Positions 6,581-43,240 of a DNA stretch of 46,923 bases are shown piece after piece. The stretch is from Nitrospirales bacterium (GTDB lineage Bacteria > Nitrospirota > Nitrospiria > Nitrospirales > UBA8639): positions 1 through 46,923 of the forward strand of contig JAJEJG010000003.1 in the NCBI GenBank assembly GCA_022828225.1, written 5' to 3'. The number at the start of each line of letters is the position of its first letter. The stretch's first letter is position 1. The notes under the pieces were generated by a model. The model was not told the origin of the DNA. It was given only the letters and a program-made list of their open reading frames with translations, and ran no database searches. Position numbers and translations under genes: made by a program.

Positions 6581-6668
6581 TAGTGTCAGTTTTATGTCAT
6601 TTAGTTGACATTATTATATTTTATGTCATAGTTCTGAAACTTAATGTCAATTTAAAGCCAACTTCAGG
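6581..6668 (+). promoter_or_regulatory. AT-rich leader with repeated TGTCA motifs
   Basis: In this AT-rich stretch TGTCA occurs at 6584-6588, 6595-6599, 6624-6628 and 6645-6649, and as its complement TGACA at 6606-6610. Spacings are 11, 11, 18 and 21 bp, close to one or two helical turns. A TTGACA hexamer lies at 6605-6610. The arrangement suggests a multi-site operator or promoter for the gene at 6676; this is inference. Confidence 0.4.
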
Positions 6669-23536: not shown

Positions 23537-23763
23537 CGGCTATCGCGTTCTTCCCGGATCAATTGAGCCGGTGAGACGGTTGGGTTGACCCGGGTTCGAG
23601 TCTGGAGCCGCAGGCGTAACTCTTCGACGGTTGGATGCTCGGAAAGCCGTTGAATCTCCGCAATCAGGTAATCGGACAGAGACGTACCGGCCAAGGCGGC
23701 CCTGGACTTGAGAACCCTGTGAAGGTCATCGGGGACGTTTCGCAACTGGATCATTTTTGACAT
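23533..23763 (-). CDS. FitA-type ribbon-helix-helix antitoxin
   Basis: A 76-aa antitoxin: MIQLRNVPDDLHRVLKSRAA then LAGTSLSDYLIAEIQRL is the FitA/Arc-like ribbon-helix-helix. The C-terminal tail (SPAQLIREERDSR) would bind the PIN toxin. Two ATGs (23763, 23754) are possible. The predicted transcript start practically coincides with the first, so the mRNA may be leaderless. Confidence 0.88.
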   Translation of the reverse strand: MSKMIQLRNVPDDLHRVLKSRAALAGTSLSDYLIAEIQRLSEHPTVEELRLRLQTRTRVNPTVSPAQLIREERDSR

Positions 23764-23798
23764 GTGATAAACCTATTTACATGTTTAGCACATGTCAA
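23760..23798 (-). promoter_or_regulatory. Promoter and operator of the fitAB-like operon
   Basis: Minus strand TTGACA (23793-23798), 17 bp, TAGGTT (23770-23775). The self-complementary hexamer ACATGT occurs at 23760-23765, 23779-23784 and 23790-23795. The last touches the -35 and the middle one lies in the spacer. Confidence 0.6.
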
Positions 23799-23844
23799 GA
23801 GTTCCTTCCATTCCACGAGGATGAACCTAAAGAAAAGACTGTCC

Positions 23845-23939
23845 CCCTCACCCCAGCCCTCTCCCGCAATGGGGAGAGGGTTTATGAATGGCGAAGATAA
23901 AGACACTGGATTCCCGATTAAAAATGTCGGGAATGACAG
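23845..23939. repeat. Repeat families C and A
   Basis: Family C at 23845-23880 (CCCTCACCCCAGCCCTCTCC ... GGGGAGAGGG) and family A at 23899-23939 (ACACTGGATTCCCGATTAAA ... GTCGGGAATGACAG), in the usual order. Confidence 0.8.
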
Positions 23940-23963
23940 AAGGAGGAAGCGGGCAGGACAGGA

Positions 23964-24851
23964 TTATTCCGGTCTCCAGGGAAATGGGCCCATCGAGTCG
24001 TCCAGCAGAATGCGCCACACGTTCATGGGCAACCATTCTTCGTACATCCACCAATCTTTGTATTGAGGCAACTGGACGGCCTTCGGGATCATCATCCAGT
24101 TCGTTCCTTTCTTGAATTCCGCATAAATCGCGCCCCGTATGTCGTGCAGGAATTGGATATAGTCTTTCACGTCCTGCTTGGTACCCCCCAATAACGGTTC
24201 GGCTTTTCCGCTGTGCGCATAGATGGCCCTGTCGAAGTCCATTTGTTCGATTTCTTTCAAGGACCGCTCCCATTCCTTGATGTTGAAATCCGGCACGATG
24301 TTGAACAGGATCGCCTGCGGATCGACCAGGTCGGCGATATAGGCGATTTTCTGTTTGGGAAGGAGAAAAACGGTCATACCCATCCCATGATTCATGCCCA
24401 AGTAATGCAATTCCAGTACGGTACCGCCCAGGGTGATGTCTTTTCGCTTGCCCGACCAACTTGCGTCGGGAACCATCATATCCGGCCCGGGGTTCGCCTT
24501 CATCCATTGATAGGCTTCCTCATGGGCCATGACGGTTGCTCCGGCATCGTGAAACACTTGTCCGCCACTTGCATGATCCCAGTGATTGTGGCTGTGAAAG
24601 AGATAGCGGATCGGTTTGTCCGTGACGGCCCGGATGGCTTCGACAAATCCTTTCGCGTGGTTCGTATTCACCGATTCAATCGCGAGGACGCCTTCGCCCG
24701 TCACCACGAACATGGAAAAATAGGCGCCGGCCGGGTTCCCATAGCTATACACCCCCGTGTCGATCTTGGCCGTATGCGGGGGCAGCGTTTCGGCGGAAGC
24801 AACACCGAAGAACACGATAGTCATGATGAACAGACAAAGAACCTGTTTCAT
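23964..24851 (-). CDS. Exported metallo-beta-lactamase-fold hydrolase
   Basis: A 295-aa protein with a signal peptide (MKQVLCLFIMTIVFFGVASA, cleavage before ETLPP), so periplasmic. The zinc-binding HxHxDH motif is H88-N-H90-W-D92-H93 in HSHNHWDH. Later ligand candidates are the His in LGMNHGMGM, the Asp in YIADLVD and the His in IYAHSG. These place it in the glyoxalase II/beta-lactamase superfamily; the substrate cannot be read. A Trp-rich C-terminal end (YKDWWMYEEWLPMNVW) is unusual for simple members. The ATG at 24851 is chosen for the signal peptide and the GGAAGGAGT upstream. Confidence 0.82.
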   Translation of the reverse strand: MKQVLCLFIMTIVFFGVASAETLPPHTAKIDTGVYSYGNPAGAYFSMFVVTGEGVLAIESVNTNHAKGFVEAIRAVTDKPIRYLFHSHNHWDHASGGQVFHDAGATVMAHEEAYQWMKANPGPDMMVPDASWSGKRKDITLGGTVLELHYLGMNHGMGMTVFLLPKQKIAYIADLVDPQAILFNIVPDFNIKEWERSLKEIEQMDFDRAIYAHSGKAEPLLGGTKQDVKDYIQFLHDIRGAIYAEFKKGTNWMMIPKAVQLPQYKDWWMYEEWLPMNVWRILLDDSMGPFPWRPE

Positions 24852-26695: not shown

Positions 26696-29116
26696 TTACG
26701 TTAGCTCCGCCATCGTCACGCCGTCGCCGCCTTCTTCCTGACTCCCGGGTCGATACTCCTCCACGTATGCCGACTGCGCGAGAAATTCTCGAATCGCGGT
26801 CTTGAGTTTCCCGGTTCCATGCCCATGAATGATCCGGACGGACCTGGCATTCCGCAGCAAAGCCAGATCCAATTGGGCCGTCAATTGCTCCAGGGCTTCT
26901 TCCGCAGTCTGTCCCCGCAGGTCGATGCCGGCGAAATCCGACGCCGATGATCCCGAACCTGCGCTCCCGCTCGATAGTGACGACGGTTTCGCCAAACGCG
27001 GCGCGGGACTCTTTTCTTGCGGGACAACGTCCGGCACGCTCCCCGCTTTACCCACGCCCACCAGTCGCTCCACGTGAACGGAAAGTTCGGACGACCCGAC
27101 CTGCACACGAACGGATTTCTTCCCTTCAGGCTTTTCCAGCAACCGGCCCAGCGTGTCCAGGTTGGCGATTTCCACGACGTCGCCTTCTTCAAGCGACGCA
27201 ACCGGAACGGGTTCCGACGCCGTGCGTCGATTGATCGTCGCTTCCACTTGATGCAACTGACGTTGCGCCTCCTGCGCGTGTTCTTGCGTCCGTCGGCGCT
27301 GCAACGACTCGGTGATCCGCCGGACCTCCGCGCGGGCCGCGGCCAACTCCTCACGAAACTTCTTTCTCATCTTTTTGATTTCGTCGCGCTCGATGGAACG
27401 TAATCGTTCCGCAATCGCCTGGGCTTCCGCTGCCTCACGGCCGGCTGTTTCTCGCTGAGTCCGGGCGTCGTCGAGTTCATCCTTCAATTCCTGATGGGTG
27501 CGTTGCAGATCCGTGAACACGTGATCGAGTTGCCGGTCTTCACGATGGACCAAACTCAGGGCCTGATCAAGAATCGACGGGTCCATACCCAAACGCCCGG
27601 CGATATCCAGCGCGGAGGACCCGCCGGGGATGCCGGGGATAAACCGGTACGTCGGAGCCAGCGTATTCACGTCGAATTCGAGGCTCGCGTTCAGAAACCC
27701 GGGCGTCGAAAGAGCCAGAGTTTTCAAGGCATTGTAGTGCGTCGTCACGACGACCTTGAGGTTGAGTTCGACAAACCGGCGAAGCAGCGCCTCGGCCAAG
27801 GCCGCGCCTTCGGCGGGATCCGTTGAACTGATGACTTCGTCCAAGAGGACCAGCGTTCGCGGAGACTCTCCGCCGGAGGGGTGTTCGATGCTTTGGAGCA
27901 GGCCGATCAGTTTTCTGATGTGCGCGGAAAAACTGGATAGGTCTTTAGTCAAATCCTGCGCATCGCCGATGTCCGCGAAGGTTTCCTCGAAAAACGCCAT
28001 CTCCGATCCGTCCCTGCACGGCAGGTGAAGCCCGCACCGTACCATCAGACTGCTCAGCCCCAACAATTTCAGCAGTACGGTCTTTCCACCCGTGTTGGGA
28101 CCGGATATCACCAACACCGAGGAGTCCCTTTCAAACATGACGTCGTTCGGCACGACCTGTTCCTTGTTCAACAGCAGCAAGGGGTGCCGCGCGTTCCAGA
28201 GACGAACGTGTCCGTCCGTGTTGGGTCGAACCGGCGTTCCGTTCATACGGGCGCTGAGGCGCGCTTTCGCTCCGATACAATCCAAAGTTGTCAGGACCTG
28301 CAACAGGCTCCGTAAATCCTCCAGGTGCTGCACGACCCGGCTCGTGAGTTCCTGCAGGATGCGGGCGATTTCCCGGGCGACCTGAAGCTCGGCGACTTTG
28401 ATCTGATTGTTCAGGTCGATAAGTTCACGAGGCTCCATGAACACCGTCGCGCCGCTGGCCGATATGTCATGCACGATGCCATGGAGAGCATGCTGACGTT
28501 CGGCTTTGATCGGCAAAACGTACCGGTTCTCCCGCTGGGCATAGTACGGCTCCTGCAAGAGGTCCCGGTAACGTGAGGAGGCGACCATGTTCTCCATGCG
28601 CTGGCGTATACGGTGCTTCAACCCCTGCGAAAGACGGAGTGCTTCATACAACGCCGGCGAGGCATGATCGAGTATGTCCCCTTCCGCGCTCACGCATGTA
28701 TCGATCTCCTCCCGCAGTCCGGAAAGGTCCGGCAGGGACCCATAGTAGGCAAACAGAGCCGCCGCGATCTGTTGATTCGCCACGAGACACCGCCGCACCG
28801 CCCCGGCCACGTGGATGAGCACGGCAATGTCCCTCAATGTATGAAGTTCCAGGATTCCGCCTTTTTCAGCCTTGTGCAGAGCTTGCGATGAATCCTCAAA
28901 CTGTACTGGGGGAAACGGCACCGCGGCATGCTGAAGCTCCAGCATATCCGTGGTCTCCTCCATGCGTTGCTGCGCAAGTTCTGGTGTATCCGCCAGAGGC
29001 AACCGCCGGCATAACTCGGCCCCCAAAGCCGAATGCGCCTGGCCGGCCAACGCCTCCAACACCTGCGGCCACTCCAGGGCCTGTTGCGTTTCGGATATAG
29101 CGGGAAGATCAGACAC
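26696..29116 (-). CDS. mutS2: Endonuclease MutS2
   Basis: An 806-aa MutS-family ATPase with a C-terminal Smr nuclease domain. MutS2 acts in recombination control or ribosome-collision rescue depending on species, not in mismatch repair (family knowledge). Walker A is GPNTGGKT at 339-346. Walker B is TLVLLDEVISSTDP, followed by the dimer-closing VVTTHYNALK. A long charged coiled coil (about 520-640) follows. The Smr domain at the end has IDLRGQTAEEAL and the HGHGTGKLK active-site motif. The mismatch-recognition domain of MutS is absent, as expected. Confidence 0.96.
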   Translation of the reverse strand: MSDLPAISETQQALEWPQVLEALAGQAHSALGAELCRRLPLADTPELAQQRMEETTDMLELQHAAVPFPPVQFEDSSQALHKAEKGGILELHTLRDIAVLIHVAGAVRRCLVANQQIAAALFAYYGSLPDLSGLREEIDTCVSAEGDILDHASPALYEALRLSQGLKHRIRQRMENMVASSRYRDLLQEPYYAQRENRYVLPIKAERQHALHGIVHDISASGATVFMEPRELIDLNNQIKVAELQVAREIARILQELTSRVVQHLEDLRSLLQVLTTLDCIGAKARLSARMNGTPVRPNTDGHVRLWNARHPLLLLNKEQVVPNDVMFERDSSVLVISGPNTGGKTVLLKLLGLSSLMVRCGLHLPCRDGSEMAFFEETFADIGDAQDLTKDLSSFSAHIRKLIGLLQSIEHPSGGESPRTLVLLDEVISSTDPAEGAALAEALLRRFVELNLKVVVTTHYNALKTLALSTPGFLNASLEFDVNTLAPTYRFIPGIPGGSSALDIAGRLGMDPSILDQALSLVHREDRQLDHVFTDLQRTHQELKDELDDARTQRETAGREAAEAQAIAERLRSIERDEIKKMRKKFREELAAARAEVRRITESLQRRRTQEHAQEAQRQLHQVEATINRRTASEPVPVASLEEGDVVEIANLDTLGRLLEKPEGKKSVRVQVGSSELSVHVERLVGVGKAGSVPDVVPQEKSPAPRLAKPSSLSSGSAGSGSSASDFAGIDLRGQTAEEALEQLTAQLDLALLRNARSVRIIHGHGTGKLKTAIREFLAQSAYVEEYRPGSQEEGGDGVTMAELT

Positions 29117-29420
29117 GAGGATGGTGGATGGGATTGTTCACGTTTATAAATTTGCCTTCAGATAAGAGTAACGAAGTCACGAACGAAACGAAAGGGGGGG
29201 GATTCTGAATGCTCATGCCCAATACCCCACTGGAAGACGTGAAGCAGGTAAAGAAGGAGGGAAAATTGAAATGTCTGAGAAGACTACGGGATAAGATTGA
29301 CCGTGCGACTGGCTGTAAAGCGGATTATCCTAATGGTTATGTTCAACAGACGAGATCAACAGCCATTTATTGTCAGGAAGCTTGCTGGCACGTATCCATT
29401 TGGTGGGCATCACTGTTGCC
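29117..29420. other. Intergenic space with poly-G tract
   Basis: No convincing gene. A run of eight G (29194-29201) lies 7 bp before an ATG at 29209. That ATG opens an 80-codon frame running to 29451, into the end of the converging gene. The frame has no recognisable product and an odd composition (many Cys/Trp late), so I do not call it a gene. Confidence 0.5.
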
Positions 29421-30377
29421 TTACCGCTTGGTAATCTTTGGGCCGACATAGACGACATATACCGGCTTGCCAGGTACTATGGGCCAGGAGAAATGTAGGC
29501 GAAGCGTCATATGTTTCTCCTTACCGTGCCATGGACAAAACAAATTCTTTCCGGGGTTATTTGGATGGGGAAACGTCAACTCGTTGTGGAAATTTGCTTT
29601 CTCGTTATCCGACGAGTCGGAAAACAACGCGGTTTTGCCGCCTGTGAAATATTTCTGATAAATCCGTTGGCCTTCCGGGGTGCGTACGCCATTCTCGTCG
29701 AATTCACGTGCAAACTGGTCCAGTATGCCGAGCAATACAACGACGCGGTCTGCTGTACTCTTGGGAAGAGGAAACCCTTTAAAAGGCTCAAAGCAATCGT
29801 CCGCGAAGGTCAGGCGCATGAAACGTCTAATAGAATATTCACGTAAATCGTCCCATGACTCGACCTTGATTGCTACGAGTTTTTCTTCCAGTGTGACTTC
29901 ATTGCGCCAATTGTCGAGGTTCGAACGCAGGTCTGCTAACCCTTCATCCTCGCGGCGCCAAATCACCTCCACGGGCGAATAATTCCAATCCGATGGCGTA
30001 ATACTGACTAAACCGCATTCAACGTCATGGAACGTTCGAAATGCGGCTTCACCAACTGCGGAATCCGTAACTACCTCGCCTCGACATTCCAGGTATTCAT
30101 TTTCAGAATGCTGGCGCAAATCGCTCCAAAACGGACCATGACGCGTCAGCCAGCCCATTACGGCTCGCCGTTCGTTGTTGGCGAGTTGGCCGATTGCCTG
30201 TTGCATCGTCATATCCGGCATCGGATTGCGGTTCAGAAGCTCACGCTGGCAATGCAACTCCAGTCCGTAGCGTTGGACTATGCCACGCATGGTCATCAGC
30301 CGCGCAAGCGCGTCGCGAAACGCCGTTTTCTCATGGAACTGGCCGTGGATTGACAAATCATTGACCAGAAAATCCAA
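29421..30377 (-). CDS. Unknown 318-aa protein, third gene of putative defence operon
   Basis: I do not recognise the domain. It starts with TTG (MDFLVNDLSIHGQFHEKTAF) only 3 bp after the ATPase gene stop, with GGAG 7 bp upstream inside that gene, so translation is coupled. It is soluble, with no membrane segment. Notable parts: FRDALARLMTMRGIVQRYGL early, NERRAVMGWLTRHGPFWSDL, ECGLVSITPSDWNYSPVEV, then LTFADDCFEPFKGFPLPKS. Near the end come KANFHNELTFPHPNNPG, LFCPWHGKEKHMTLRLHFSW and VYVVYVGPKITKR. The conserved-looking His/Asp/Glu residues in the last block could form an active site (inference). By context it may be the effector of a module sensed or driven by the ATPase and DUF262 partner. 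Confidence 0.72.
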   Translation of the reverse strand: MDFLVNDLSIHGQFHEKTAFRDALARLMTMRGIVQRYGLELHCQRELLNRNPMPDMTMQQAIGQLANNERRAVMGWLTRHGPFWSDLRQHSENEYLECRGEVVTDSAVGEAAFRTFHDVECGLVSITPSDWNYSPVEVIWRREDEGLADLRSNLDNWRNEVTLEEKLVAIKVESWDDLREYSIRRFMRLTFADDCFEPFKGFPLPKSTADRVVVLLGILDQFAREFDENGVRTPEGQRIYQKYFTGGKTALFSDSSDNEKANFHNELTFPHPNNPGKNLFCPWHGKEKHMTLRLHFSWPIVPGKPVYVVYVGPKITKR

Positions 30378-30380
30378 TGG

Positions 30381-31580
30381 TCAACTCCAGCCAGCAAAGT
30401 AATTCATATCTTTATCGAACTGGTCGAAAAATCCTTCCGGCCAACTGTCGATGTTGCCATCAGCGTCCAAGATTGGACTTTGGACCTGAGAAGCGCCTCC
30501 CGGTTGACTTTCTCGTCTCATTTGGAAGAAGTGCAAGGCGACATCATCGGCATGTAGTGTTTGGTTTTTGATAGCCCGCCTGATGCCATTCAACACGTGA
30601 TCGCTGTGCGTCTCGATCACGACCTGCACACCCGAGGACGCGACTTGAGCCAAAAATTCCCCCATCATCGCCTGCCCGGCAGGATGCATATGGACCTCAG
30701 GGTTCTCGATCAGAAGTAAATCTTCTTCATTTGCAACTAGGGCGGCCACTACGATGGGAAGAACCTGTGTCAGTCCAAACCCCGTATGAATAGGACGGTG
30801 GAAATCCGTATCTGTGGACATACGAATCCCTAATGTCACAGCATTGGTGTGAGGGATTTGATTAATCGCCAACACACAATCCGGGAAAAAACGCGCCATA
30901 CGCGCCTCGACCTGCCGAAACAAAGTAGGCGGCACGTCCTCAATCACAAGATTATCAACCACAAGGGCGTCACGTCTCGAGTGAAGAATGCTGACAGCGT
31001 ATTCTCCTCTTGGGCCAACGACGGGCGTGAGTTGAGGATCATCTAATATGTAGTTCTCGCGTGGCCCCAGCCTCTCCGCTGTCAAGTAGGTGAGCGCGCA
31101 CATACGTTTGGCCAACGAATCAGCCAAGAGCACACCAGGTGACTTGCCACCCGACGGTGTCGGCACACCATGTGGCAGGAGGTAGCGAAACGGCTGAGTT
31201 CTATCTATGTCTGTAGGTAAGACCATGTCCTTATCAGGACCACTGAAGCGCCTTAAATCCATGGACATCTCGTCGCGTTCACCGTCAAATTCCCATTGAA
31301 ACCGAGCCTCATCGCTGTCCAATAACGCAATCGTACAGGAGCGTCGCCCATGAACCTTATCAATCACATCACCTACAGTGCCAAGTTGTATTGCACTGCC
31401 ATTGAGCATCAAGCGCATCGACCACTCATGTTCGCGCATAGTCTGATGCAGAAGAACGAGCGCGTGCAGCACCGATGATTTGCCTGAAGCATTGACGCCG
31501 GCCAGCAAGGTCAGCGGACGTAGCGGCAGTTTCAACAACTCAAAGCATTTAAAATGCTCTAGATCAATCCGTGTGAGCAC
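30381..31580 (-). CDS. AAA ATPase with DUF3696-type C-terminus
   Basis: A 399-aa SMC/OLD-like ATPase. Walker A is GVNASGKSS (28-36) in the RecF/SMC-like start ITRIDLEHFKCF-type context (IDLEHFKCFELLKLPLRPLT). Signature-like HTGFGLTQVLPIVVAAL precedes Walker B DLLLIENPEVHMHP, then QVVIETHSDHVLNGIRRAI. The C-terminus SPILDADGNIDSWPEGFFDQ then FDKDMNYF is the DUF3696 tail. There is no TOPRIM or nuclease domain. It starts with GTG inside the DUF262 gene (17-bp overlap). Such ATPases are frequent in phage-defence loci (established for OLD/ABC-like families). Here it probably couples the DUF262 protein to the third protein. Confidence 0.85.
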   Translation of the reverse strand: MLTRIDLEHFKCFELLKLPLRPLTLLAGVNASGKSSVLHALVLLHQTMREHEWSMRLMLNGSAIQLGTVGDVIDKVHGRRSCTIALLDSDEARFQWEFDGERDEMSMDLRRFSGPDKDMVLPTDIDRTQPFRYLLPHGVPTPSGGKSPGVLLADSLAKRMCALTYLTAERLGPRENYILDDPQLTPVVGPRGEYAVSILHSRRDALVVDNLVIEDVPPTLFRQVEARMARFFPDCVLAINQIPHTNAVTLGIRMSTDTDFHRPIHTGFGLTQVLPIVVAALVANEEDLLLIENPEVHMHPAGQAMMGEFLAQVASSGVQVVIETHSDHVLNGIRRAIKNQTLHADDVALHFFQMRRESQPGGASQVQSPILDADGNIDSWPEGFFDQFDKDMNYFAGWS

Positions 31581-32670
31581 CTAAGACCCCCTCTAAATTT
31601 TTCCGGACCATCTCAAACCGGTACTTTACCCGTCGAGTATCATTCGTGCCGTAGGTGATCGCGGCATTGAATTCTTCATCTTCAAGTAGCCTATACATGG
31701 CTTGGCGAAGCAGTTTGGCGTACTTTTCTACAATGTGCTCGGGGTATTGCGACAATCCTGTACTCATCACGTCCCAAAGCGATGCATTGAGAACACTCCG
31801 CCCAACTTGTCCGGGCCCGTGCTTTCTGAATGCATGCTTATCGAACAGCCTGAAATTATTGACAAGGCTTCTCCGAAATTCGACGGACAATCGCGAAAGC
31901 TCAGATTCTTCCATCCTGTTCATTTGACGCAGGCCCTCGGCAAGAAAGACATCCATGTCGCCGCGATATTTATCCAGACCAAGAAGACGAAAGGCGCAAA
32001 ATCGATTGACAAATTCCTTGTCGCGCATTGTTTTTCTATTCAAACTCCTCCCTGTCGCCTTAAGAAATACTTCGGTTTGCGCTTCATCTTTCAGGAAGAG
32101 AGTTGCCGGCCCCATAAAAAGGCAGTTGCGCATCTGTTGTCTGGTAAGAGGCTCACCGCTATTCACTCTTTCAAAAATGTCCAGACAGGCGCGTTCCGGC
32201 GCCTTCGAGTCGATGATGTAGAAAATGAGATTACAATCTTCGATGCGGTTTTGAAGTTTAGAAGAAAGGTCAGAGAATTTTTTGCCATCGAGTTCGTCGC
32301 GACCCGGGAGTTGCAGCTTCAGATTGTCACCAACAAACTGTTTGAATGTGGACAGGCGCTGCAAACCGTCCACGACCACCATTCGCCCTTTGTCGTCTTC
32401 AGCCATGTAGAAAACGGGAAGAGGTATCCGCATGATCACGGATTCGATGAGCTTGCTTTGCTTGTCTTCAGGCCAAATAAAATCACGCTGAAAGTCTGGA
32501 TCCATCACATAGTTTCCTTGATGAATCCGCCGGATGACGTCGTGAATCGTTCGATTCTCATTCCGGATCAGGAGATCGTCTATAGGGTAGTCTCCCCATG
32601 ACGCATCATTGAGATCGAGACCTTCGATTTCTTCGTTGTCGATCTGTTGTTCTGATAGTTGAGCTTCCAT
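31564..32670 (-). CDS. DUF262 (ParB/GmrS-like) protein
   Basis: A 368-aa protein. The DUF262 core is visible: DPDFQRDFIWPEDKQSKLIE (F60-Q-R62), SVIMRIPLPVFYMAEDD, then VVVDGLQRLSTFKQFV. In that segment the usual DGQQR reads DGLQR (101-105). Next come RACLDIFERVNSGEPLTRQQ and MRNCLF. There is no DUF1524/HNH nuclease half, unlike GmrSD-type restriction enzymes. DUF262 belongs to the ParB/Srx nucleotide-hydrolase superfamily (family knowledge), so NTP sensing or hydrolysis is a reasonable guess. It is first gene of the operon, with a promoter and inverted repeat ~130 bp upstream. Confidence 0.87.
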   Translation of the reverse strand: MEAQLSEQQIDNEEIEGLDLNDASWGDYPIDDLLIRNENRTIHDVIRRIHQGNYVMDPDFQRDFIWPEDKQSKLIESVIMRIPLPVFYMAEDDKGRMVVVDGLQRLSTFKQFVGDNLKLQLPGRDELDGKKFSDLSSKLQNRIEDCNLIFYIIDSKAPERACLDIFERVNSGEPLTRQQMRNCLFMGPATLFLKDEAQTEVFLKATGRSLNRKTMRDKEFVNRFCAFRLLGLDKYRGDMDVFLAEGLRQMNRMEESELSRLSVEFRRSLVNNFRLFDKHAFRKHGPGQVGRSVLNASLWDVMSTGLSQYPEHIVEKYAKLLRQAMYRLLEDEEFNAAITYGTNDTRRVKYRFEMVRKNLEGVLGAHTD

Positions 32671-32937: not shown

Positions 32938-32973
32938 AAAGACACTGGATTCCCGATCAGGTCGGGAATGACA
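32938..32973. repeat. Repeat family A copy
   Basis: GACACTGGATTCCCGATCAG then GTCGGGAATGACAG, in the spacer between the defence-like operon and the ligase gene. Confidence 0.75.
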
Positions 32974-33026
32974 GAAGGGAAAAGAGGAGAGGGAGTTTGT
33001 AGGTATGTACTTCTTACCATAAAGGG

Positions 33027-33149: not shown

Positions 33150-34289
33150 TTGAACGATAATGATTTGAATATCACGCTTGGGGTCGAAGAGGAGTTCTTT
33201 CTGGTTGACCCGGAATCGCGGGATCTGATTGCCGATCCGGATCCGGCAATCTACGAGTCATGCCGGCGTGCCAGCGGCCCTCACACCGTGGTGCACGAAT
33301 TTCTTCGCTCGCAAATTGAGACCAATACCCGGGTCTGTGCCGACTTCACCCAATTGCGGGAGGCCTTGAACGAAACGCGCCGCCTGATCATTGACGCCGC
33401 GCGGCAACATGGGATTGCGGTTATCGCGTCGTCCACCCATCCGTTCGCCGACTGGCGCGTGCAGTTGCCGACGCCTCAGGAACGGTATCAGCGTTTCGCC
33501 ATTACCTATCAAGAGCGACGGTCCTTTCTCGTAAACGGCATGCACATCCACGCCGGATTCGGCGATCCCGACTCGCGTATTCGAGTCATGACGGCCCTGC
33601 GTCGCTATCTCCCCTTGCTGAACATTTTGTCCGCGTCTTCCCCCTTTAGCGCGGGACGGGAGACCGGATTCAAATCCTATCGCCTGAACCTCTTGAACGT
33701 GGTACCGCGGTTCGGGCTCCCCCCGGCTTTTTTCTCTCGACGGGACTACGAAGATCTGCTCAAAGCGTACCAGTCCCTCAAGTTCATCGATGACGGCAGC
33801 GAGTTGTGGTGGGACCTCCGTCCTTCGCCGAAGTACCCCACGATCGAGTTGCGTATCTGCGACGTTTGCGCCCGCCTTGACGACGCGCTCGCCGTGACGG
33901 CAGTGTACGCCTCTCTTATTCGCAAGCTCCTCCGCGAGGATGCCCACGGCACACTATCCCCGGAGCCGCCGTCCGAAATCATCGCGGAGAATCGGTGGTT
34001 GGCGTCGCGCTATGGGGTATTGGCGTTCTTGGGCGATCCTGCCATGGGCGAGCGCATCGACATCAACGATCAACTCACGGCGCTGGCCAACGACCTCGCC
34101 GAAGATGCCCAAGCCCTTGGCTGCGAGCAGGAATTACATCATGCTCTTGTGATTATCCGGGAAGGGGCCGGCTCTGACCGGCAACTCGACCTCTTCCGGT
34201 TGCGACGGCTTGAAGGTGATGGCACGGAGCAAGCGTTGCGTGCCGTAACCGATCTTATCATCCAGGAAACGATTGGCGACACGCAATGA
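33150..34289 (+). CDS. YbdK-type carboxylate-amine ligase (glutamate-cysteine ligase GCS2 family)
   Basis: A 379-aa ATP-grasp-like ligase of the GCS2 family. E. coli YbdK has weak glutamate-cysteine ligase activity; the true substrate of most members is unknown. Motifs: LGVEEEFFLVDPESRDL at the start, EFLRSQIETNT, GIAVIASSTHPFADW, NGMHIHAGF, PFSAGRETGFKSYRLN and PTIELRICDVC. The start is TTG at 33150, chosen because GGAGGGAGGG lies a few bp before it and the family begins just before GVEEEF. An upstream TTG (33114) would add 12 unlikely residues. Directly after its stop the AT-rich spacer begins. Confidence 0.9.
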   Translation: MNDNDLNITLGVEEEFFLVDPESRDLIADPDPAIYESCRRASGPHTVVHEFLRSQIETNTRVCADFTQLREALNETRRLIIDAARQHGIAVIASSTHPFADWRVQLPTPQERYQRFAITYQERRSFLVNGMHIHAGFGDPDSRIRVMTALRRYLPLLNILSASSPFSAGRETGFKSYRLNLLNVVPRFGLPPAFFSRRDYEDLLKAYQSLKFIDDGSELWWDLRPSPKYPTIELRICDVCARLDDALAVTAVYASLIRKLLREDAHGTLSPEPPSEIIAENRWLASRYGVLAFLGDPAMGERIDINDQLTALANDLAEDAQALGCEQELHHALVIIREGAGSDRQLDLFRLRRLEGDGTEQALRAVTDLIIQETIGDTQ

Positions 34290-34416
34290 CATTTTTATTT
34301 TAAATGAAATTTTATTGAATAAATATAAATTAAGTAAATCAAATAAATATATATAATAATTAAATTAACACATTATTATATATTAAAGTATTTATTTAAT
34401 TTAAAATATATATTTC
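34290..34416. other. Extremely AT-rich spacer
   Basis: By my count only 9 of 127 bases are G or C, against a window that is well over half GC. The change is abrupt at both ends: it starts at the ligase stop and ends at the transporter ATG. No ribosome binding site is present before that ATG. TATATAATAAT-like -10 elements are everywhere, so no single promoter can be picked. Confidence 0.9.
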
Positions 34417-35145
34417 ATGGAATCATTTTTCAATAGCATTCTTCTATTCGGGCTTTTGATCGGCATGCAGCATGCTTTGGAGGCTGATCACGTGGCGGCC
34501 CTGTCATCGCTTTGTACGGGCACACGATCGGTTCGCCGGATCGCCACGCATGGTGCGGTCTGGGGACTGGGCCACTCGGTCACCCTGCTGATTTTCGCCG
34601 GAGCTGCGGTCTTTCTGGATCTTCGCTTCGGCGACAAGCTGGCCCATGCACTGGAATGCGTTGTCGGCCTCATGCTGATCCTGTTGGGAGGACAAGTCCT
34701 TTTTCGCTTGTGGTCTGCCCGCGTTCATTTCCATACCCACCGGCACGCTGACGGCAAGACCCATTTTCACGTCCATAGCCATCACGGCGAGAAGACCGAC
34801 CATAATCCAGACCGTCACGTTCATGCCCATACGAGCAAACTGCCCATGCGGACACTGGTGGTGGGCATGGTCCATGGTTTGGCCGGCTCAGCGGCCCTGG
34901 TGGTTCTTACGGCTTCGACCGTGCAGGACCCGGTCACGGGTCTGCTCTACGTCGCGCTGTTCGGTCTCGGCTCGATCGCCGGCATGACGGTGCTTTCTTC
35001 GTTACTCGCCGTACCGCTGGCCTGGACGGCTCGAGCTCTGACCTGGGCTCATCGCAGCCTCCAGGCGGCGGTAGGAGTCGCAACCACAGCGCTGGGCATA
35101 CTGGTGCTGGCGGAAGCCGGAAGCGCTTTCTTTTTGCCTGGTTGA
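34417..35145 (+). CDS. NicO/UreH-type nickel/cobalt transporter
   Basis: A 242-aa inner-membrane protein with about six hydrophobic segments. The first helix has HALEADHVAA, the HX4DH metal motif of nickel/cobalt transporters. A cytosolic or periplasmic loop at about 105-145 is rich in His (HFHTHRHADGKTHFHVHSHH), which would bind metal. GMVHGLAGSAALVVL and GLGSIAGMTVLSSLLAVPLA follow. Nickel import for urease or hydrogenase, or efflux, is possible; no such enzymes are in the window. Translation starts without a visible Shine-Dalgarno after an AT-rich leader. Confidence 0.85.
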   Translation: MESFFNSILLFGLLIGMQHALEADHVAALSSLCTGTRSVRRIATHGAVWGLGHSVTLLIFAGAAVFLDLRFGDKLAHALECVVGLMLILLGGQVLFRLWSARVHFHTHRHADGKTHFHVHSHHGEKTDHNPDRHVHAHTSKLPMRTLVVGMVHGLAGSAALVVLTASTVQDPVTGLLYVALFGLGSIAGMTVLSSLLAVPLAWTARALTWAHRSLQAAVGVATTALGILVLAEAGSAFFLPG

Positions 35146-35270
35146 GTCCGCTCAACACCGTTCCATTTTCGCATTTCACTCCGGCCATGGCTTGCACGCC
35201 TTGTTCTATCAATTACGGTTTCTTTAGAATTGTGCATGTTTGTTCGTTGACAATTTCCGCTGTCTCCTTC

Positions 35271-35416
35271 TGTCATCCCCGACCCCGATCGGGGATCCAG
35301 TGTCTTTGCCTGTTCTTCCGTCTGGGCAGGGTAAAGACCCTGGATTCCCGCGTGAGCGGGAATGACAGAAAGCGGCGGCGCCCTCACCCCAACCCTCTCC
35401 CGCCGCGGGGAGAGGG
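35271..35416. repeat. Repeat families A, A and C
   Basis: Family A inverted (35271-35309, core CCCCGATCGGGG), family A direct (35333-35368, with CCCGCGTGAGCGGG core) and family C (35381-35416). The variant cores keep base pairing. The ~300-bp space 35146-35446 holds nothing else I can identify. Confidence 0.8.
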
Positions 35417-35446
35417 AGAAATGAGGCACAACCGAAAGTTCAAGAA

Positions 35447-36670
35447 ATGACTCAGGATGAAGCCCGTTCGTATCTCAATTACCTGCTGACGTTGGGGCTC
35501 CGCCGTGAAGAGGCGTTCGGGCCGTTGGCTATCGCGTTTCTTCGTGAACGGGATCTGACGGCCCTCGGCATCGCGCCGGAAGAGCAGTTCAGTTTGATCA
35601 TCGCCACGACCCAGGCGATTGCCGCGGAGCCCAAACGGTATTCGCTCAAATTGGAACTGCTGCAAAAGGCCCGGCAACTGCTTGCGACCACGCGGTTCTT
35701 CGACCCCGAATTGGATAAAGATTTGGAGCATGACATTCAAAAGACGACCGCCGAGTTGGCGATCTATAACGACGCCATGAAGTCTTCCCGGACTGCGTCG
35801 ATCGACCGGCACACGTTGATCGTCGAGACGGATGTCCCCGACTATTTTCTGGACTTGGCGCAGAAGCGAGCCGGGGCGTATTACCAGAACAAGTATCGGC
35901 TAACCAAGGAGGCCAAAACCGCGCAGCATTTCGGCGGCACGCCCAAGCGCTTCGAACCCGACAATGAAGCCCTGCACAAGGAATTTCCCGGCGCTTGCGC
36001 TCCATTTATGGCCGTTCGGACGAATGGGTTCCACATGATGCTTCCGTTTGACCTGAAAATCAGCCGGCGGCCCGATGAGCCGCTCGATGCGGGCATCAGG
36101 ATCTTTTACGCGAAAATGGGGTATTCGTATCCGCTCCGCTATGAGATGGGGAAACTGTGCAGTTACCACGACGGGCAGGTCTATGACATTGCCCTGGATG
36201 ATCCGAACTTATTATTCGTATCCGTCTCCGGCATCAAAGATGCCGAATTTCCGGCCAAATCCGTTCCCGGTTCCGGGGACGTGCCGCCGGAATATGCCTA
36301 CCCGCTCGCCGTACTCGAACATACCGGCAGCCTCGGGCCGTTTATCCAGGTCAGTTGCAATTTCAAAGTCTGGTTCGATGCATCCAAGGTCTCCGTCCTG
36401 ATCCAAGGCGCGCCGGACCTGTACGAATATGGGCTTCAGGGCGGCGCGGGGCTCATGACCCGTTCCTATGCCTCGGACAAAGTCCCCACCTATGCGGAAG
36501 CCCAATCACAACCCTGGCAGGAAGGGCTGAGTTTTAACTTCGTGAATCTTCATCTGACCTTGAGCCCTGGCACGGAAACGGGCTTTATTCCCCACAGTAC
36601 GCCGATCTTTACGGTGTTTCCCGTTCTGAGCAAGCAAAGCTACAAGTTCGACCGGTTGACCGAGGCATAG
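35447..36670 (+). CDS. Unknown 407-aa soluble protein
   Basis: I do not recognise it. Residues 1-60 are helical (MTQDEARSYLNYLLTLGLRR), and about 65-115 may form a coiled coil. The rest (about 130-407) is a mixed alpha/beta domain with many aromatic residues, for example YYQNKYRLTKEAKTAQHFGG, GFHMMLPFDLKISRRPDEP, MGYSYPLRYEMGKLCSYHDG and SFNFVNLHLTLSP. There is no signal peptide or membrane segment. The ATG follows the end of a family C repeat by 29 bp; GAAAG is a weak ribosome binding site. The real start could be slightly further in. Confidence 0.65.
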   Translation: MTQDEARSYLNYLLTLGLRREEAFGPLAIAFLRERDLTALGIAPEEQFSLIIATTQAIAAEPKRYSLKLELLQKARQLLATTRFFDPELDKDLEHDIQKTTAELAIYNDAMKSSRTASIDRHTLIVETDVPDYFLDLAQKRAGAYYQNKYRLTKEAKTAQHFGGTPKRFEPDNEALHKEFPGACAPFMAVRTNGFHMMLPFDLKISRRPDEPLDAGIRIFYAKMGYSYPLRYEMGKLCSYHDGQVYDIALDDPNLLFVSVSGIKDAEFPAKSVPGSGDVPPEYAYPLAVLEHTGSLGPFIQVSCNFKVWFDASKVSVLIQGAPDLYEYGLQGGAGLMTRSYASDKVPTYAEAQSQPWQEGLSFNFVNLHLTLSPGTETGFIPHSTPIFTVFPVLSKQSYKFDRLTEA

Positions 36671-36748
36671 GATTGTCTCACCTCTCGAAGTTCTGACTAA
36701 ATCAGACCTTTGGTTGCCTTGCTTTTCATAAGAAATCCATTACACCTG

Positions 36749-36778
36749 TTGATACGCCATGAACGCCTATGCTATCAT
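36749..36778 (+). promoter_or_regulatory. Possible promoter of the CNNM/CorC gene
   Basis: TTGATA (36749-36754), 18 bp, TATCAT (36773-36778). It gives a leader of about 180 nt to the ATG at 36966. Nothing else is visible in 36671-36965. Confidence 0.35.
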
Positions 36779-36965
36779 GGCATCTCCAATGGACGACGAC
36801 GGTCCCAGACGATATTCCCTGCACCAGCGCAATAATCTCTACCCGCCCTTATCTTCTTTCTTTGTCCATTTCCCAATACCGGATCCCTGCAGAGCAAAGG
36901 GCTTGCTTTCTCTAGGTTTTCCGGCCCCTCTGCCCGGAACCAGTGTTTTGCTCTGATCTGATCCC

Positions 36966-38246
36966 ATGGAATATCTCATCATTCTGGTTTGCTTGGTGTT
37001 ATCCGGATTGTTTTCAGGAGCGGAAATTGCGTTCTTTTCCATTCCCGAAAGCCGCTTGGAAACCCTGAAGGAGGAAGGCCGCCGGGCGGGAGCTTTGGCG
37101 CTTTCTCTCAGGCAGAATCCCCAGCGACTTCTGTCGACGATCCTGATCGGGAACAACGTCGTCAACCTGACGGCCGCCGCGTTGATTTCCATGGTTACCT
37201 TCGAACATTTCGGGTCCGAAGCGGTTGCGATTGCGACGGGCGGGTTGACGATTTTTGTGCTGATCTTCGGAGAAATCGTCCCCAAAACCCTGTGCGCCAA
37301 ACACGCAGCCTCCGCGGTCCAATTCTTCGCGTACATGATCTTTTGGATGGAAAAACTCTTTGCTCCGGCTCTCTTCCTGTTGGAACCCCTAATCCTGAAA
37401 TTGACCGGAGGACGGGGGCTGGCCGTCCCGTTCGTGACGAAAGAAGAGCTCAAGATCATGATCGAGGCCGGAGGCAAAGCCGGGGTGCTCGAGTCCGAAA
37501 AAGTCGAGATGATCAAGAATCTTTTCGAGTTCACCGAGCTGACGGCCAGGGACGTGATGACGCCGAGAATCGATACGGTCGTCATGGACAGCAATCTGTC
37601 TTTGAACGAAGCCAAAGAAAACCTGTTCAATACCAAACATTCACGGATTCCCGTCTATGACGACCTCCGCGACAACATCACGGGCATCCTGTATCGAAGT
37701 CATGCCCTGATCGAACTGGCCCAGGGCAATCGCACGAGCAAACTGAAGGAATTAGCCCTCCCGCCGCTCTTCATTCCCATTTCGAAACCGGTTGGCGATC
37801 TCTTGAAGCAATTTCAGCAGGAGAAACGCCACATCGCGATCGTCGTCAATGAATTCGGCGGGGTCATGGGAATCGTCACCACGGAAGATCTGTTGGAAGA
37901 GGTCGTGGGTGACATTCTCGACGAGACGGACGTCAGTGAAGAACTGATCAAACGGACCGGTAAAAATGAGATTCTGGTGAGCGGTCGAACGGAGGTTCGC
38001 AAAATCAATGAATTTCTGAAGGTTGCCTTGGATAAAGAAGAAGACGTCGTCTTCTATACGATCAGCGGGCTTATCCAGCAGCACCTCGGCCATATCCCTG
38101 CGGTCGGCGAGGAACTCCGAGTAGCCGATTGTCTGTTGACCATCCGCGAAGCCGATAACCGATCCATCAAAAGCGTCCAGATCCTCAAACTGGAAGACGT
38201 ACCTAAAGAAGAACCGGCGCCCGCCCAAGCCGGTTCCTCCACATAA
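36966..38246 (+). CDS. CNNM/CorC-type transporter-associated membrane protein (DUF21, CBS pair, CorC_HlyC)
   Basis: A 426-aa protein. Residues 1-~190 are a DUF21 domain with three to four membrane helices ([46 protein letters not shown]). Residues ~200-330 hold two CBS domains ([38 protein letters not shown] then [12 protein letters not shown]). The C-terminal CorC_HlyC domain ends near [17 protein letters not shown]. Family members are linked to magnesium/cobalt export or ion homeostasis; the older name haemolysin is misleading. The layout is complete. Confidence 0.92.
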
Positions 38247-38269
38247 CGCCGGGCGTTTTGTCTTTTCCC

Positions 38270-40345
38270 TCAGTCGCCACCGGCTCGAAGCAACTCAAGA
38301 AACCCGGCTTCATCAAGCACGGTAATCCCCAAACGCTTGGCCTCGTCCAGTTTCGACCCCGGGTCTTTTCCGACGACGACGTACGAGGTGTGTTTGCTGA
38401 CACTGGAGGTGACTCGTCCACCAAGCGCTTGGAGGCGTTGCGTCGCTTCCGGCCGGCTCACGTTCTCCAGCCCGCCGGTGAACACAAAACTTTTCCCTTT
38501 CAAGGGTCCGGCTTGTCCACTTTTTTCAGAGGAAACAGCCTGAACGTTCACCCCTAACGTCTTCATGGCATTGAGTACAGCCACGTTTCGCTCTTCGGCG
38601 AAGAAGCTGACTACGCTCTGCGCAATTTCCGGCCCGACATCGTGAATCTCCAGTAATTCCTCACGGGTCACCGCCAAAAGCTTATCCAACGAACCGAACT
38701 GCGATGCCAAAATCTGCGCGACGTGATGGCCGACGTGGTGAATGCCGAGCCCGAAGAGAAACCGCTCTAGTGAGGGGGTTTTGCTTTGCGAAATAGCCAC
38801 GAGCAACTGGGCTGCTGATTTTTCCGCGAATCCGTCCAGGCTCAAGAGTTGCTCTTCGGTCAAACGGTAGAGGTCCGCCAGATCCTTGACCAAGGCTTTA
38901 TCGACGAGTTGCGCGACGGTCTTTCCTCCCAGTCCTTCGATATTGAGGGCGCCTTTGGAGGCAAAATGTTGAATGCCGCCTTTCAACTGCGCGGAGCACA
39001 CGGTTCGTCCCGTGCAATAATAAACAGGACCTTCCTGTACCACGGCGGATTGACACACCGGACAGGCACGCGGGGCCTCGAACGCACCGGCACGTTGTTC
39101 GCCGGGAATCTCGATCCGCTCGACGATATCGGGGATCACGTCCCCCGCCCGCTCAACCTTGACCGTATCTCCGACCCGCACGTCCTTGCGCGCCACTTCT
39201 TCCACGTTATGCAACGTGGCCCGGCTGATCGTCACGCCGCCGACTTCGACCGGCGTCAATAGCGCAATCGGGGTCAACGCGCCGGTCCGCCCCACAGACA
39301 CCACGATGTCCTGCACGATAGTCAATTCCTTGCGCGGGGGGAATTTAAACGCGATCGCCCAGCGCGGGCTCCTCGATTTTTCGCCGAGTTGCTCCTGGAA
39401 GTCCCGTGAATTGAGTTTCACCACAATGCCGTCGATTTCAAACGGCAAGTCTTCCCGCTGCTCCATCATGCTGCGGTGAAAGGCTATGACCTCTTCGATG
39501 CCGTTACAGAGTTGGCGTTGTGCAGGATCGGGGACGAGCAAACCCCACTCATGGAGTTTGGTCACGGTCTCCCAATGCGTAAGCGGCAACGGATCGGAGG
39601 AGACCATCAAATCGTAACAGGTGAGCACCAGGGGTCTGGAGGCGGTAATCCCGGCATCGAGTTGCCGGAGCGAACCGGAAGCGGCGTTGCGGGGATTGGC
39701 AAAGGTCTTTTCTCCGCGCTCGGCCAACTGCCGATTGAGGGCTTGGAAATCGGGAAGACGCAGGTACACTTCCCCCCGGACTACGATCCGCTTCGGCACG
39801 TTCCCCTCGATGGTCAGACACTGAAGCCGGGAAAGAATCGACCGAAGGTTGGGAGTAATCAGTTCACCCGTTTGCCCGTCTCCCCTGGTCGCGCCACCGG
39901 CGAACTTCCCCTCTTCATAGACAATGACGACTGACAATCCATCGTATTTCGGCTCAACGACGTACTCGATTCGTTCGATTTCCAGTTCTTTCTTGACGCG
40001 TTTATCAAACGCATAGACGTCATCAGGAGCCAGGACTGAATCCAGACTCAACAACGGACGATCGTGCGGCACCTTCGAAAACACCGAAGCAGAAGCAACC
40101 GCAGGAGGAGAACTGCCATAGTCTTCAACTTCGATATACCCGACGCGTTGCGTGGGCGAATCCGGAACAACCAGGTCGGGATATTGCTCTTCCAAATCCT
40201 GAAGAGACTGAAAGAGTTTGTCGTATTCCGAATCCGAAATTTCCGGTTTGCCGAGACCATAATAGAGACGGTTGTGCCGGCGAATCCGTTCGCGCAATTC
40301 GGCGATTCGAGCTTGAATGGAACGTGGAGCGTCGGATGGGGACAT
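38270..40345 (-). CDS. ligA: NAD-dependent DNA ligase LigA
   Basis: Seals nicks in DNA using NAD+. The adenylated lysine is K133 in EPKYDGLSV. The order is: Ia domain (YYGLGKPEISDSEYDKLF), adenylation domain (GDGQTGELITPNLRSI, FEIDGIVVKLN) and OB fold with WAIAFKFPPRKE. Then come the zinc cysteines in CPVCQSAVVQEGPVYYC, the helix-hairpin-helix region and a C-terminal BRCT (GKSFVFTGGLENVSRPEAT). The length is 691 aa. The ATG at 40345 (MSPSDAPRSI) is preferred over a TTG at 40360. It lies 39 bp after the unknown gene at 40385 and may share its transcript. Confidence 0.97.
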   Translation of the reverse strand: MSPSDAPRSIQARIAELRERIRRHNRLYYGLGKPEISDSEYDKLFQSLQDLEEQYPDLVVPDSPTQRVGYIEVEDYGSSPPAVASASVFSKVPHDRPLLSLDSVLAPDDVYAFDKRVKKELEIERIEYVVEPKYDGLSVVIVYEEGKFAGGATRGDGQTGELITPNLRSILSRLQCLTIEGNVPKRIVVRGEVYLRLPDFQALNRQLAERGEKTFANPRNAASGSLRQLDAGITASRPLVLTCYDLMVSSDPLPLTHWETVTKLHEWGLLVPDPAQRQLCNGIEEVIAFHRSMMEQREDLPFEIDGIVVKLNSRDFQEQLGEKSRSPRWAIAFKFPPRKELTIVQDIVVSVGRTGALTPIALLTPVEVGGVTISRATLHNVEEVARKDVRVGDTVKVERAGDVIPDIVERIEIPGEQRAGAFEAPRACPVCQSAVVQEGPVYYCTGRTVCSAQLKGGIQHFASKGALNIEGLGGKTVAQLVDKALVKDLADLYRLTEEQLLSLDGFAEKSAAQLLVAISQSKTPSLERFLFGLGIHHVGHHVAQILASQFGSLDKLLAVTREELLEIHDVGPEIAQSVVSFFAEERNVAVLNAMKTLGVNVQAVSSEKSGQAGPLKGKSFVFTGGLENVSRPEATQRLQALGGRVTSSVSKHTSYVVVGKDPGSKLDEAKRLGITVLDEAGFLELLRAGGD

Positions 40346-40384
40346 GCCTGCACGCAACAACCCCGGACCGTTCGGGGCTGGCTC

Positions 40385-42274
40385 CTACCCTTGAATGAAT
40401 TGTCCGGCAAAACTTCGAATTTCGTGCCCGTTGAGCACGTGAAAGCGTCGCAGCCGGGCAACGGTCTGGCCCGAAAACCGCAACAGGGAAATCGGGATGA
40501 GCCTGCGCTCGAATTTTCGGGCAATATGTCTCCACCGGGCCGGCGGCGGAACGGGACTCACGAGCGTGATATGTTTTTCTTGTGAATGGAGGGCCGCGCC
40601 GGCGATCAGGCGCTCCTCCAGAGTTCGAGCAAAATCGAGCCGGGGATCCTCCCAAATATCCGGAATCGGCCGTGGAGGAAACAGGAACAGGGTCCCCCCG
40701 TATTGGGACTGCCCGATCCCCGGTCCGACCATGTTCTCCAAAAAGGGAGAGGCATAAAAGCAGAGCGTGGATTCTTCAACGTGTTCCGCGTACCACGTGG
40801 CCTGCCACGAAAATTTCTCGCGGTCCGCGGGCACCTCGAAGATGAAGACCACGATTTCCACGGTACCACGAGACGGCGGGATTTCCTTCACGTACAGATC
40901 GGCACTTTTTTGTCGTGGATCCCAATGGCGCAACGTTTCCCGCATGTCGATGCCGTCGCGAATCGAAGTCGTGAATTTATCGACCCGGGCCAGATCCTCC
41001 CCGAGCAAGGCTTTGCTTTGTTCGCGAACGTGGGCCGTAAAGCCTTCGATCCGATTATCTTCCGGAGGCCAGGAACATTGACCCAAGGGATTCCAACGAT
41101 AGGCCCATCGGCGTCGTTTCCCCGGCTCCTGCCGCGGCTTGAGCGACAGCGTTCGCCATGACAGCGGTGTGCTCCCCAACCGGTTCTTCGCAGTGGCCAC
41201 GTGACCGTCCGGAGACTCAAGCCGGCCAAGGCCGATCCCATATGGCGGAAACGCAGCACGTACGGCTTCGTCCGGCTCATACGAGTAACTCTTTGCCGTT
41301 TCGAGAAAAGTCACGGCAAATTCATCTCCGGCGAATTGTTTGGCTGCCAGCGCCAAGGTATACAAATCCGGGGTCAGCCGGCGTTCACACAACGCAAGGT
41401 TCCTCACGTATTGCAGATACATCTGGAGCAACTGGGGCGTTACCCAATTGGATTCCTGTTGCAAGTGCGCCGGGCGGGTGGCAAGCCATCGGAGCCGGGT
41501 TTCGAGCAGCAATTCCTTGATTCCGTCGACGGATAACTGAGCGTCGGAACGGGCTTCGATCCGTCTCCGCTCGTACAGTTCAGTCAGAAAAGGCAGTTCA
41601 CACAGCAGAAAATATAACGTACGGGGTTCCACAAGATGGAGGGCAGGACGACCTTCCAGGGCTTCGGGAACCTCGTATGGCCGGCGGTTCTGATAGGCGT
41701 CGCGCAACCACGGCCAGTCTTCCACGGCGCACATACACAGAATCGAGTCATAATCCAATTCAAGCTCATGCAATTTGAACGCCATCCACTTGATTCGTGA
41801 CCAGCGTTGGCTGTGCGGTTTGGGATACGGGAGAAAGGGCAACGCAGCCCCGGAAAAGGAGGCCAGCGAAACGCTTTTCAGGGCATACGGGTCGGGAGCC
41901 GGGTATTCCGTCGGGTCATACGCGGTCACGTCCCGGTCGATATAGGCCCGGTCGATTCCCTCCTCGATGGCCATCCTGATCGCGGCAATAACAGGTTGGC
42001 AGGGATCAAGAGGGACGTAACTGCATTCCGGACGTTCGTTGCGGTCCGGCTCAGGCAGCACCACGATGCCGATAACGGGCAATTGCCTGATCCCTTCCTC
42101 GACAGTGTCCTCAACGGACGCCGGCAACGGCAGGGCCACACAATCAAACCGCTGCTTCAGCCACAAGTCCCGAACGGCGCCCGCCACGTCCCCACTGCCG
42201 TGACAAATCGGCACGACTTGCACGCGTGACGAAAGACGAAATACCGCGTTGTCCTGTTGCGACAAAGGACTCAT
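40385..42274 (-). CDS. Unknown 629-aa protein partnered with a MoxR-like ATPase
   Basis: I do not recognise the family with confidence. The N-terminal ~130 residues (VQVVPICHGSGDVAGAVRDL, FDCVALPLPASVEDTVEEGI, PVIGIVVLPEP) have the strand-helix pattern of TraB/ChaN-like or DUF5682-like domains, which often sit with MoxR ATPases; this is inference from memory. The middle (about 160-370) is helical. The C-terminal part has aromatic-rich beta segments (CFYASPFLENMVGPGIGQSQ) and ends in basic helices. There is no signal peptide or membrane segment. It begins 6 bp after the ATPase gene, so the two are probably co-translated and work together. Confidence 0.6.
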   Translation of the reverse strand: MSPLSQQDNAVFRLSSRVQVVPICHGSGDVAGAVRDLWLKQRFDCVALPLPASVEDTVEEGIRQLPVIGIVVLPEPDRNERPECSYVPLDPCQPVIAAIRMAIEEGIDRAYIDRDVTAYDPTEYPAPDPYALKSVSLASFSGAALPFLPYPKPHSQRWSRIKWMAFKLHELELDYDSILCMCAVEDWPWLRDAYQNRRPYEVPEALEGRPALHLVEPRTLYFLLCELPFLTELYERRRIEARSDAQLSVDGIKELLLETRLRWLATRPAHLQQESNWVTPQLLQMYLQYVRNLALCERRLTPDLYTLALAAKQFAGDEFAVTFLETAKSYSYEPDEAVRAAFPPYGIGLGRLESPDGHVATAKNRLGSTPLSWRTLSLKPRQEPGKRRRWAYRWNPLGQCSWPPEDNRIEGFTAHVREQSKALLGEDLARVDKFTTSIRDGIDMRETLRHWDPRQKSADLYVKEIPPSRGTVEIVVFIFEVPADREKFSWQATWYAEHVEESTLCFYASPFLENMVGPGIGQSQYGGTLFLFPPRPIPDIWEDPRLDFARTLEERLIAGAALHSQEKHITLVSPVPPPARWRHIARKFERRLIPISLLRFSGQTVARLRRFHVLNGHEIRSFAGQFIQG

Positions 42275-42280
42275 GGACGG

Positions 42281-43240
42281 TTATTTGTCCGGATGCAGCG
42301 GATCATCGGGTTCAAAGAAGAAATCACCCAATCCCCGGGGAAACGCCTGCTCGCCGGCAGCACGTTGTCGCTGTTGCGCCAGGGCATCCAAATCCAGGGC
42401 CTCTTCACCGAGTACTTTGATGAGCGCTTCTCGCCAGATCTCGTCGCGAGACAGGGGGTGAGACGGGTCCTGCGACAACCGTTTCAGCGCATACTGTACC
42501 AGGTGAATGCCGTCCCTCACTGAAAAACCCAGATCGAGTCGATGCGCCTTTTGCAGAAAATCGACGGTGATGGTCAGAATTTCCTGTGGAGAAAACGGCA
42601 GATGATACTGGAGGATGGCCAACTCGTGTTCACGAGCCGGAAACTCGAGTTTCAAACTGGGTTGGAGGCGCGACAGGATGTAATCCGGCACTTCATAGGT
42701 GGAGGCATCTTCATTCATCGTCACGCAACAACGGAAATCCTGATGGGCCTTGACCTGAATCCCGGCCACGACGGATTCCACCGAACGACGGTGATCGAGC
42801 AAGGGAGCGAGCGACGCCCAACTTTTCTCGTTCATCCGGTTGCCTTCATCCAGCAAACAGACTCCACCTGTCAACATTGCGGTGACTAACGGAGACGCCT
42901 GGTACTGAATCGTGTTGCCTTCGGCGATCACCGGCGTCACCAATAGATCCTCGGGTCTCGTATCGGCCGTACATTGATAGACGTAGAAGTCCTGTTTCCG
43001 TTCCCGCGTCGCGGACGTGGCCAGGGTCGTCTTGCCGATACCCGGCTGACCGATGATTCGCGGACAGAGCGGCAGATCTTTTTCATCGACCACGAGCCAG
43101 CACGCCAGCAGTTGCTGAAGGACTTCCCGGTCACCTATCCATTCCTGCTGCGACGTATCAGGCTGGGCCAGGCGCAGGGCAATCCCCTCGACATCCATCA
43201 TGCCATGCGACTGAGGGTGTTGTTGGGAGCTATGAGACAT
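42281..43240 (-). CDS. MoxR-like AAA ATPase
   Basis: A 319-aa AAA+ ATPase. Walker A is GQPGIGKT (64-71), Walker B is [12 protein letters not shown] (about 125-136), sensor 1 lies in [12 protein letters not shown], and the arginine finger region is [20 protein letters not shown]. This matches MoxR/RavA-type chaperone ATPases, which often remodel VWA-domain partners; no VWA gene is next to it. The start ([10 protein letters not shown]) lacks a strong ribosome binding site; M14/M15 are alternatives. First gene of a two-gene unit with the 629-aa protein. Confidence 0.85.

Follow-up and report, generated by a model that had tools for sequence, protein, structure and literature searches.

The window, as we call the whole 46,923-nt stretch of Nitrospirales DNA analyzed here (genome G000, probably a sponge-type nitrite oxidizer), harbors a block of defense-type genes, a carboxylate-amine ligase gene (GCS2) and a transporter gene between mutS2 and a conserved downstream gene (Table 1). 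GCS2 and the transporter gene are separated by a 127-bp spacer composed of A61 C5 G4 T57. This recount returns the 9 G/C, or 7.1%, stated in the original prediction, and the surroundings are GC-rich as described there, with 55.4% GC for the whole window. The maximal-scoring AT segment covers 34291-34435 with a score of 103; first-order Markov simulations of the window (n = 30) reached at most 21.5. Counted per 20 nt, G/C falls from 11 just left of 34290 to 2 just inside, and on the right side amounts to 1 inside, 5 after 34417 and 9 after 34436. The right border therefore lies at ~34436 and not at the ATG; as low GC reaches ~34435, the first six transporter codons are part of the tract. Abrupt borders had been proposed at both the upstream stop codon and the ATG, of which the left one stands and the right one does not.

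Table 1 Coordinates of features at the locus (positions in the window)
Feature	Position	Strand	Basis or remark
mutS2, bordering the variable site on the left	26696..29116	-	
Left end of homology to relatives with an empty site	29196..29217		3/5 genomes; the other 2 run to 29248-29250
Menshen-type set: nsnC 29421-30377, nsnB 30381-31580, nsnA 31564-32670	29421..32670	-	PADLOC
Copy of the dispersed repeat (GGATTCCCG...CGGGAATGACAGAA) preceding GCS2	32947..32976	+	similar copy at the vacated site, 23908-23941
YbdK-type carboxylate-amine ligase (GCS2)	33150..34289	+	placed differently from 7 relatives
AT-rich tract, probable right edge of a replacement	34290..34435		spacer 34290-34416 plus six transporter codons; composition, non-homology
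12-bp perfect inverted repeat ATATATAATAAT / ATTATTATATAT, 11-nt loop	34349..34383		core of a weak whole-tract palindrome
242-aa metal-transporter-like membrane protein, His-rich loop	34417..35145	+	start codon inside the tract
Conserved downstream gene, right flank	35447..36670	+	85-97% identical in relatives

The AT-rich tract is a real and singular feature. A search for A/T 60-mers with at most 3 mismatches identified a single matching place in the whole 2.36-Mb assembly, the tract itself. Of the 14 genus genomes, 4 have a match, as do 9 of 117 at the level of the order; one of these nine, G027, has its match in a contig stretch with 25% GC over its whole length, which looks foreign, and the match is thus not an island within GC-rich DNA. 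In a survey of AT segments over ~311 kb, made up of the window and 16 sampled stretches and equal to 13% of the genome, only two further segments score above 22, namely the purL leader (34.5) and 6574-6656 (23.5). Within the window, the latter ranks second in AT richness; it contains repeated TGTCA motifs and lies ~170 bp past a tRNA gene.

A variable site between mutS2 and the transporter gene

The transporter gene is present in 10 of the 14 genus genomes including G000, and comparisons are confined to these ten, G001, G002, G007 and G009 having no match. The distance from mutS2 to the transporter gene is 118-206 bp in five genomes (G004, G006, G008, G012 and G013; empty sites) and 1.5-5.3 kb in the other five (G000, G003, G005, G010 and G011; filled sites), and defense-type genes occur in four of the five filled sites. 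The same flanking genes thus enclose cargo that varies from relative to relative or is lacking, as in a variable defense hotspot. The cargo consists of nsnABC and GCS2 in the window, an Mrr-like enzyme with AbiE in G011, an Mrr-like gene in G003 and G005 (matched to that of G011 by eye), and a 381-aa gene that is not defense-like in G005 and G010. The nsn genes constitute the Menshen defense system. PADLOC assigned NsnC (6.9e-112), NsnB (1.4e-104) and NsnA (1.4e-115), and with homologues of all three genes lying side by side, nsnABC is, judged by homology, a complete Menshen-type defense gene set. Menshen is treated in PMC10952713.

The position of GCS2 differs between the window and seven relatives. 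In the relatives it precedes queG and mutS2, at a distance of 4.3-7.5 kb from the transporter gene in the six that have both; in the window it is placed between nsnABC and the tract and is the only copy in the genome. At the vacated site (23763-23964) the former flanks are joined, with a dispersed repeat between them. None of the seven relatives has AT-rich DNA following GCS2. The REP-like dispersed repeat itself is found in the window at 8950, 9778, 14450, 23908, 25665, 32947, 35342 and other positions, and elsewhere in the genus.

Breakpoints were determined by aligning the window to the five empty-site relatives. Homology ends on the left at 29196, 29197, 29217, 29248 and 29250 and begins again on the right at 34412, 34427, 34435, 34436 and 34438, skipping 50-109 bp of the relatives' DNA; from ~34283 to ~34432 there is no homology to relatives. 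According to these breakpoints, ~5.2 kb therefore replaces ~100 bp that include a promoter-like motif and the start codon. As homology stops near 29200 and resumes near 34435, we interpret the tract as the right junction of a lineage-specific replacement of ~5.2 kb at a variable, defense-gene-rich site flanked by mutS2 and the transporter gene, a reading to which we assign a probability of roughly 0.7. The tract presumably arrived with the replacement or arose during it. Of the three ideas put forward in the original prediction, an inserted low-GC element comes nearest, in the modified form of a non-homologous tract edging a lineage-specific insertion.

A low-complexity stretch could also misjoin two contigs or stand in for missing sequence, and low-complexity DNA is found here exactly where the gene order changes, a change seen in no relative. 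Nevertheless, the insert has its expected neighbors on both sides (mutS2 on the left and the 35447 gene on the right), and this expected outer gene order makes a misassembly unlikely. Moreover, the same contig no longer has GCS2 at its former position, the gene is single-copy in the genome, and AT-rich tracts turn up in other genus genomes assembled independently; we therefore consider an assembly artefact highly improbable.

The site resembles known defense hotspots and islands in that a fixed position, here beside mutS2, holds varied defense genes or none. It differs from them in that the insert contains no integrase or att site (by eye), includes a relocated metabolic gene, and ends on the right in an extremely AT-rich tract where the promoter-like site stood. 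A 164-bp AT-rich tract is also present at the variable site of G011, where it is separate, lies farther upstream and outside the promoter-like motif, and shows similarity to the window's tract not beyond that of shuffles; the remaining three filled sites have no AT-rich tract, and both points speak against the junction reading.

G000 is nearest to G003, with identities of 91% for mutS2, 92% for queG and 97% for the 35447 gene, and the two transporter genes are 78% identical. In the transporter tree G000 falls outside the nine others (support 95/90 and 97/94). Both the low identity and the outside placement are as expected of an import reaching through the transporter gene. AU tests did not reject G000 grouping with G003 (p = 0.051) or lying within its subclade (p = 0.133). 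GCS2 of G000 is 79-85% identical to all seven others, and its poorly resolved tree joins G000 with G003 at 56/61. Given these p values and the poor resolution of the GCS2 tree, we do not take transporter import as proven; import of the whole block is plausible.

The start region of the transporter gene

The label of a nickel/cobalt transporter given in the original prediction is weakly supported, with no NCBIfam match and a sub-threshold Pfam match to DsbD_2; plasmid homologues carry mixed annotations, e.g. TauE/SafE family, urease accessory protein and nickel transporter. In its reading frame, 34417 is the first start after the last upstream stop, with no other in-frame start between them. 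Inspection by eye found no Shine-Dalgarno (SD) sequence ahead of this ATG, in agreement with the earlier observation. In all nine relatives, 43-54 of the 100 bp that lead up to the conserved portion of the gene are G/C, and none has a homologous AT-rich tract directly before the transporter gene. A promoter-like motif precedes the gene in eight of the nine, as TTGTCA-N18-TACAGT in seven and as the variant GTGTCA-N17-TACAGT in G011, with G012, which has neither form, counted as a miss; the window has no such motif.

A block of nsnABC and GCS2 would thus have replaced ~100 bp holding the relatives' promoter-like site, 5'UTR and first transporter codons, and the start codon would now come from the AT-rich DNA at the joint, as would an SD-less, A/U-rich leader. 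Transcripts of the transporter gene could start inside the tract or result from read-through from GCS2, which lies on the same strand. We favor a junction that was turned into the transporter leader, with GCS2 read-through as the alternative source of transcripts; the tract itself probably works as promoter and leader. A strict scan of the plus strand of the tract found no sigma-70-like -35/-10 pair, a perfect TATAAT at 34352 having no good -35 element. No terminator-like site was found between GCS2 and the transporter gene, and an Rfam search of 34200-34500 returned no match up to E = 1, and hence no known RNA leader or riboswitch. If this reading is correct, gain of defense genes can rewire a neighbor, whose promoter-like site and start codon are lost and replaced by DNA of 7% GC in a genome of 55% GC. 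A working leader would mean that AT-rich DNA has rescued expression in a natural setting; with a leader that does not work, the transporter may be silent in the window's lineage.

Genes with SD-less, A/U-rich leaders (PMC3121790 and PMC5397173) share with the transporter gene an ATG without SD and the A/U-rich leader. They differ in that use of the 34417 start is predicted here. Furthermore, the title of PMC3121790 speaks of local absence of structure, whereas the RNA of the tract is predicted to be more structured than most shuffles (4/200 equal it in one run, 7/200 in another). Self-complementarity of the tract was equalled by 18 of 400 shuffles, and a long palindrome as functional core was rejected as marginal compared with shuffles.

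The original prediction had further suggested bent DNA, a nucleoid-protein binding region or a metal-regulator target, none of which found backing in the tests applied. Binding of an AT-specific nucleoid protein, or DNA bending, that silences or activates the transporter gene would fit the base composition, and a weak imperfect palindrome points in the same direction. However, Pfam matches to the H-NS family, the one family of AT-binding proteins searched for, are absent from all 14 genus genomes, with the same search being positive in an E. coli control. In addition, 178 of 200 dinucleotide shuffles have a predicted bend at least equal to that of the tract, according to a curvature model in which phased A-tract controls bend strongly. 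We accordingly give this explanation only a slim chance. NikR operators follow the consensus GTATGA-N16-TCATAC; allowing up to 3 mismatches to this consensus, 11 such sites occur in the window and none within 34290-34435. No DnaA box (TTATNCACA, at most 1 mismatch) was found across 33925-42584, which argues against the tract as the DnaA-bound AT region of an oriC.

Other AT-rich tracts in the genus

The original prediction had named ordinary spacers in close relatives, together with no AT-rich tract elsewhere, as evidence against it. Spacers at this site are indeed ordinary in the relatives, but the genus has AT-rich tracts at other places. Some of them, e.g. the purL leader, lie between conserved genes with no insertion, which speaks against the junction reading, since a junction is then not needed to make such a tract. 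The purL leader (L136-L145; L170 19058-19137 in G000) has a strong AT bias in some members of the genus, namely in six of nine readable genomes (G000, G001, G008, G011, G012 and G013), a count that omits G002, G003, G006, G007 and G009 (5/14, not readable by script). The bias is weaker in G004, G005 and G010; in these, a TTAAAGT/ACTTTAA-like hairpin lies ahead of the ATG. Like the transporter tract, the purL leader is extremely AT-rich, adjoins the ATG and is without SD (by eye); it differs in lying between conserved neighbors and being common to several genomes, the transporter tract being found in one.

The tract could therefore be a functional type of promoter and leader used in the genus, AT-rich by selection, with the rearrangement being incidental. 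In line with this, the AT-rich purL leaders directly adjoin the start codon, and the best match of the tract in its own genome is the purL leader, with matching orientation (E = 0.107) and a score equalled by 8 of 300 shuffles. Yet this similarity is weak and one of 12 comparisons, other tracts are located between genes that converge (G001, G005) or 3' of a gene (G012), and no relative has a homologous tract before its transporter gene. A leader shaped by selection is, on balance, rather unlikely.

The source of the A/T DNA was searched for in several collections. No exact 41-mer of the tract matched viral contigs, blastn against phages and plasmids gave matches at E 2-6 only, and the best match in genus genomes outside the tract's own copy had E = 0.016. 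None of the paper titles listed in literature searches describes such a tract. An extended form of the junction reading, which we deem very unlikely, holds that the tract is newly formed or imported A/T filler, that promoter and start were lost and an SD-less promoter and leader made in one step with the insertion, and that such tracts, including that of G011, are a recurrent joining product in the genus. A common element behind the genus tracts was tried and rejected: apart from the weak purL leader match, pairwise scores are at shuffle level, and the tracts lie in unlike settings (downstream of a cytochrome c gene, at a possible oriC, as the purL leader, and on the AbiE side of the variable site).

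The cytochrome c tract (L123 3978-4096, L199 and L201) lies downstream of the gene in G001, G011 and G008 and is missing in G000, G003 and G013; folding of the G001 copy is equalled by 2 of 200 shuffles. The region between a DUF4112-like gene and hemW (L121 3870-4338 and orthologues L215-L224; names by eye) combines conserved TGTGGATAA / CTGTCCACA sites with an AT-rich stretch and may be where chromosome replication starts in the genus; in L121 taken by itself, DnaA boxes are no more frequent than expected by chance. Among the more distant order members whose tracts were placed (G027, G039 and G108), the tract of G108 precedes a helix-turn-helix-like gene and that of G039 lies near a methyltransferase-like gene (names by eye).
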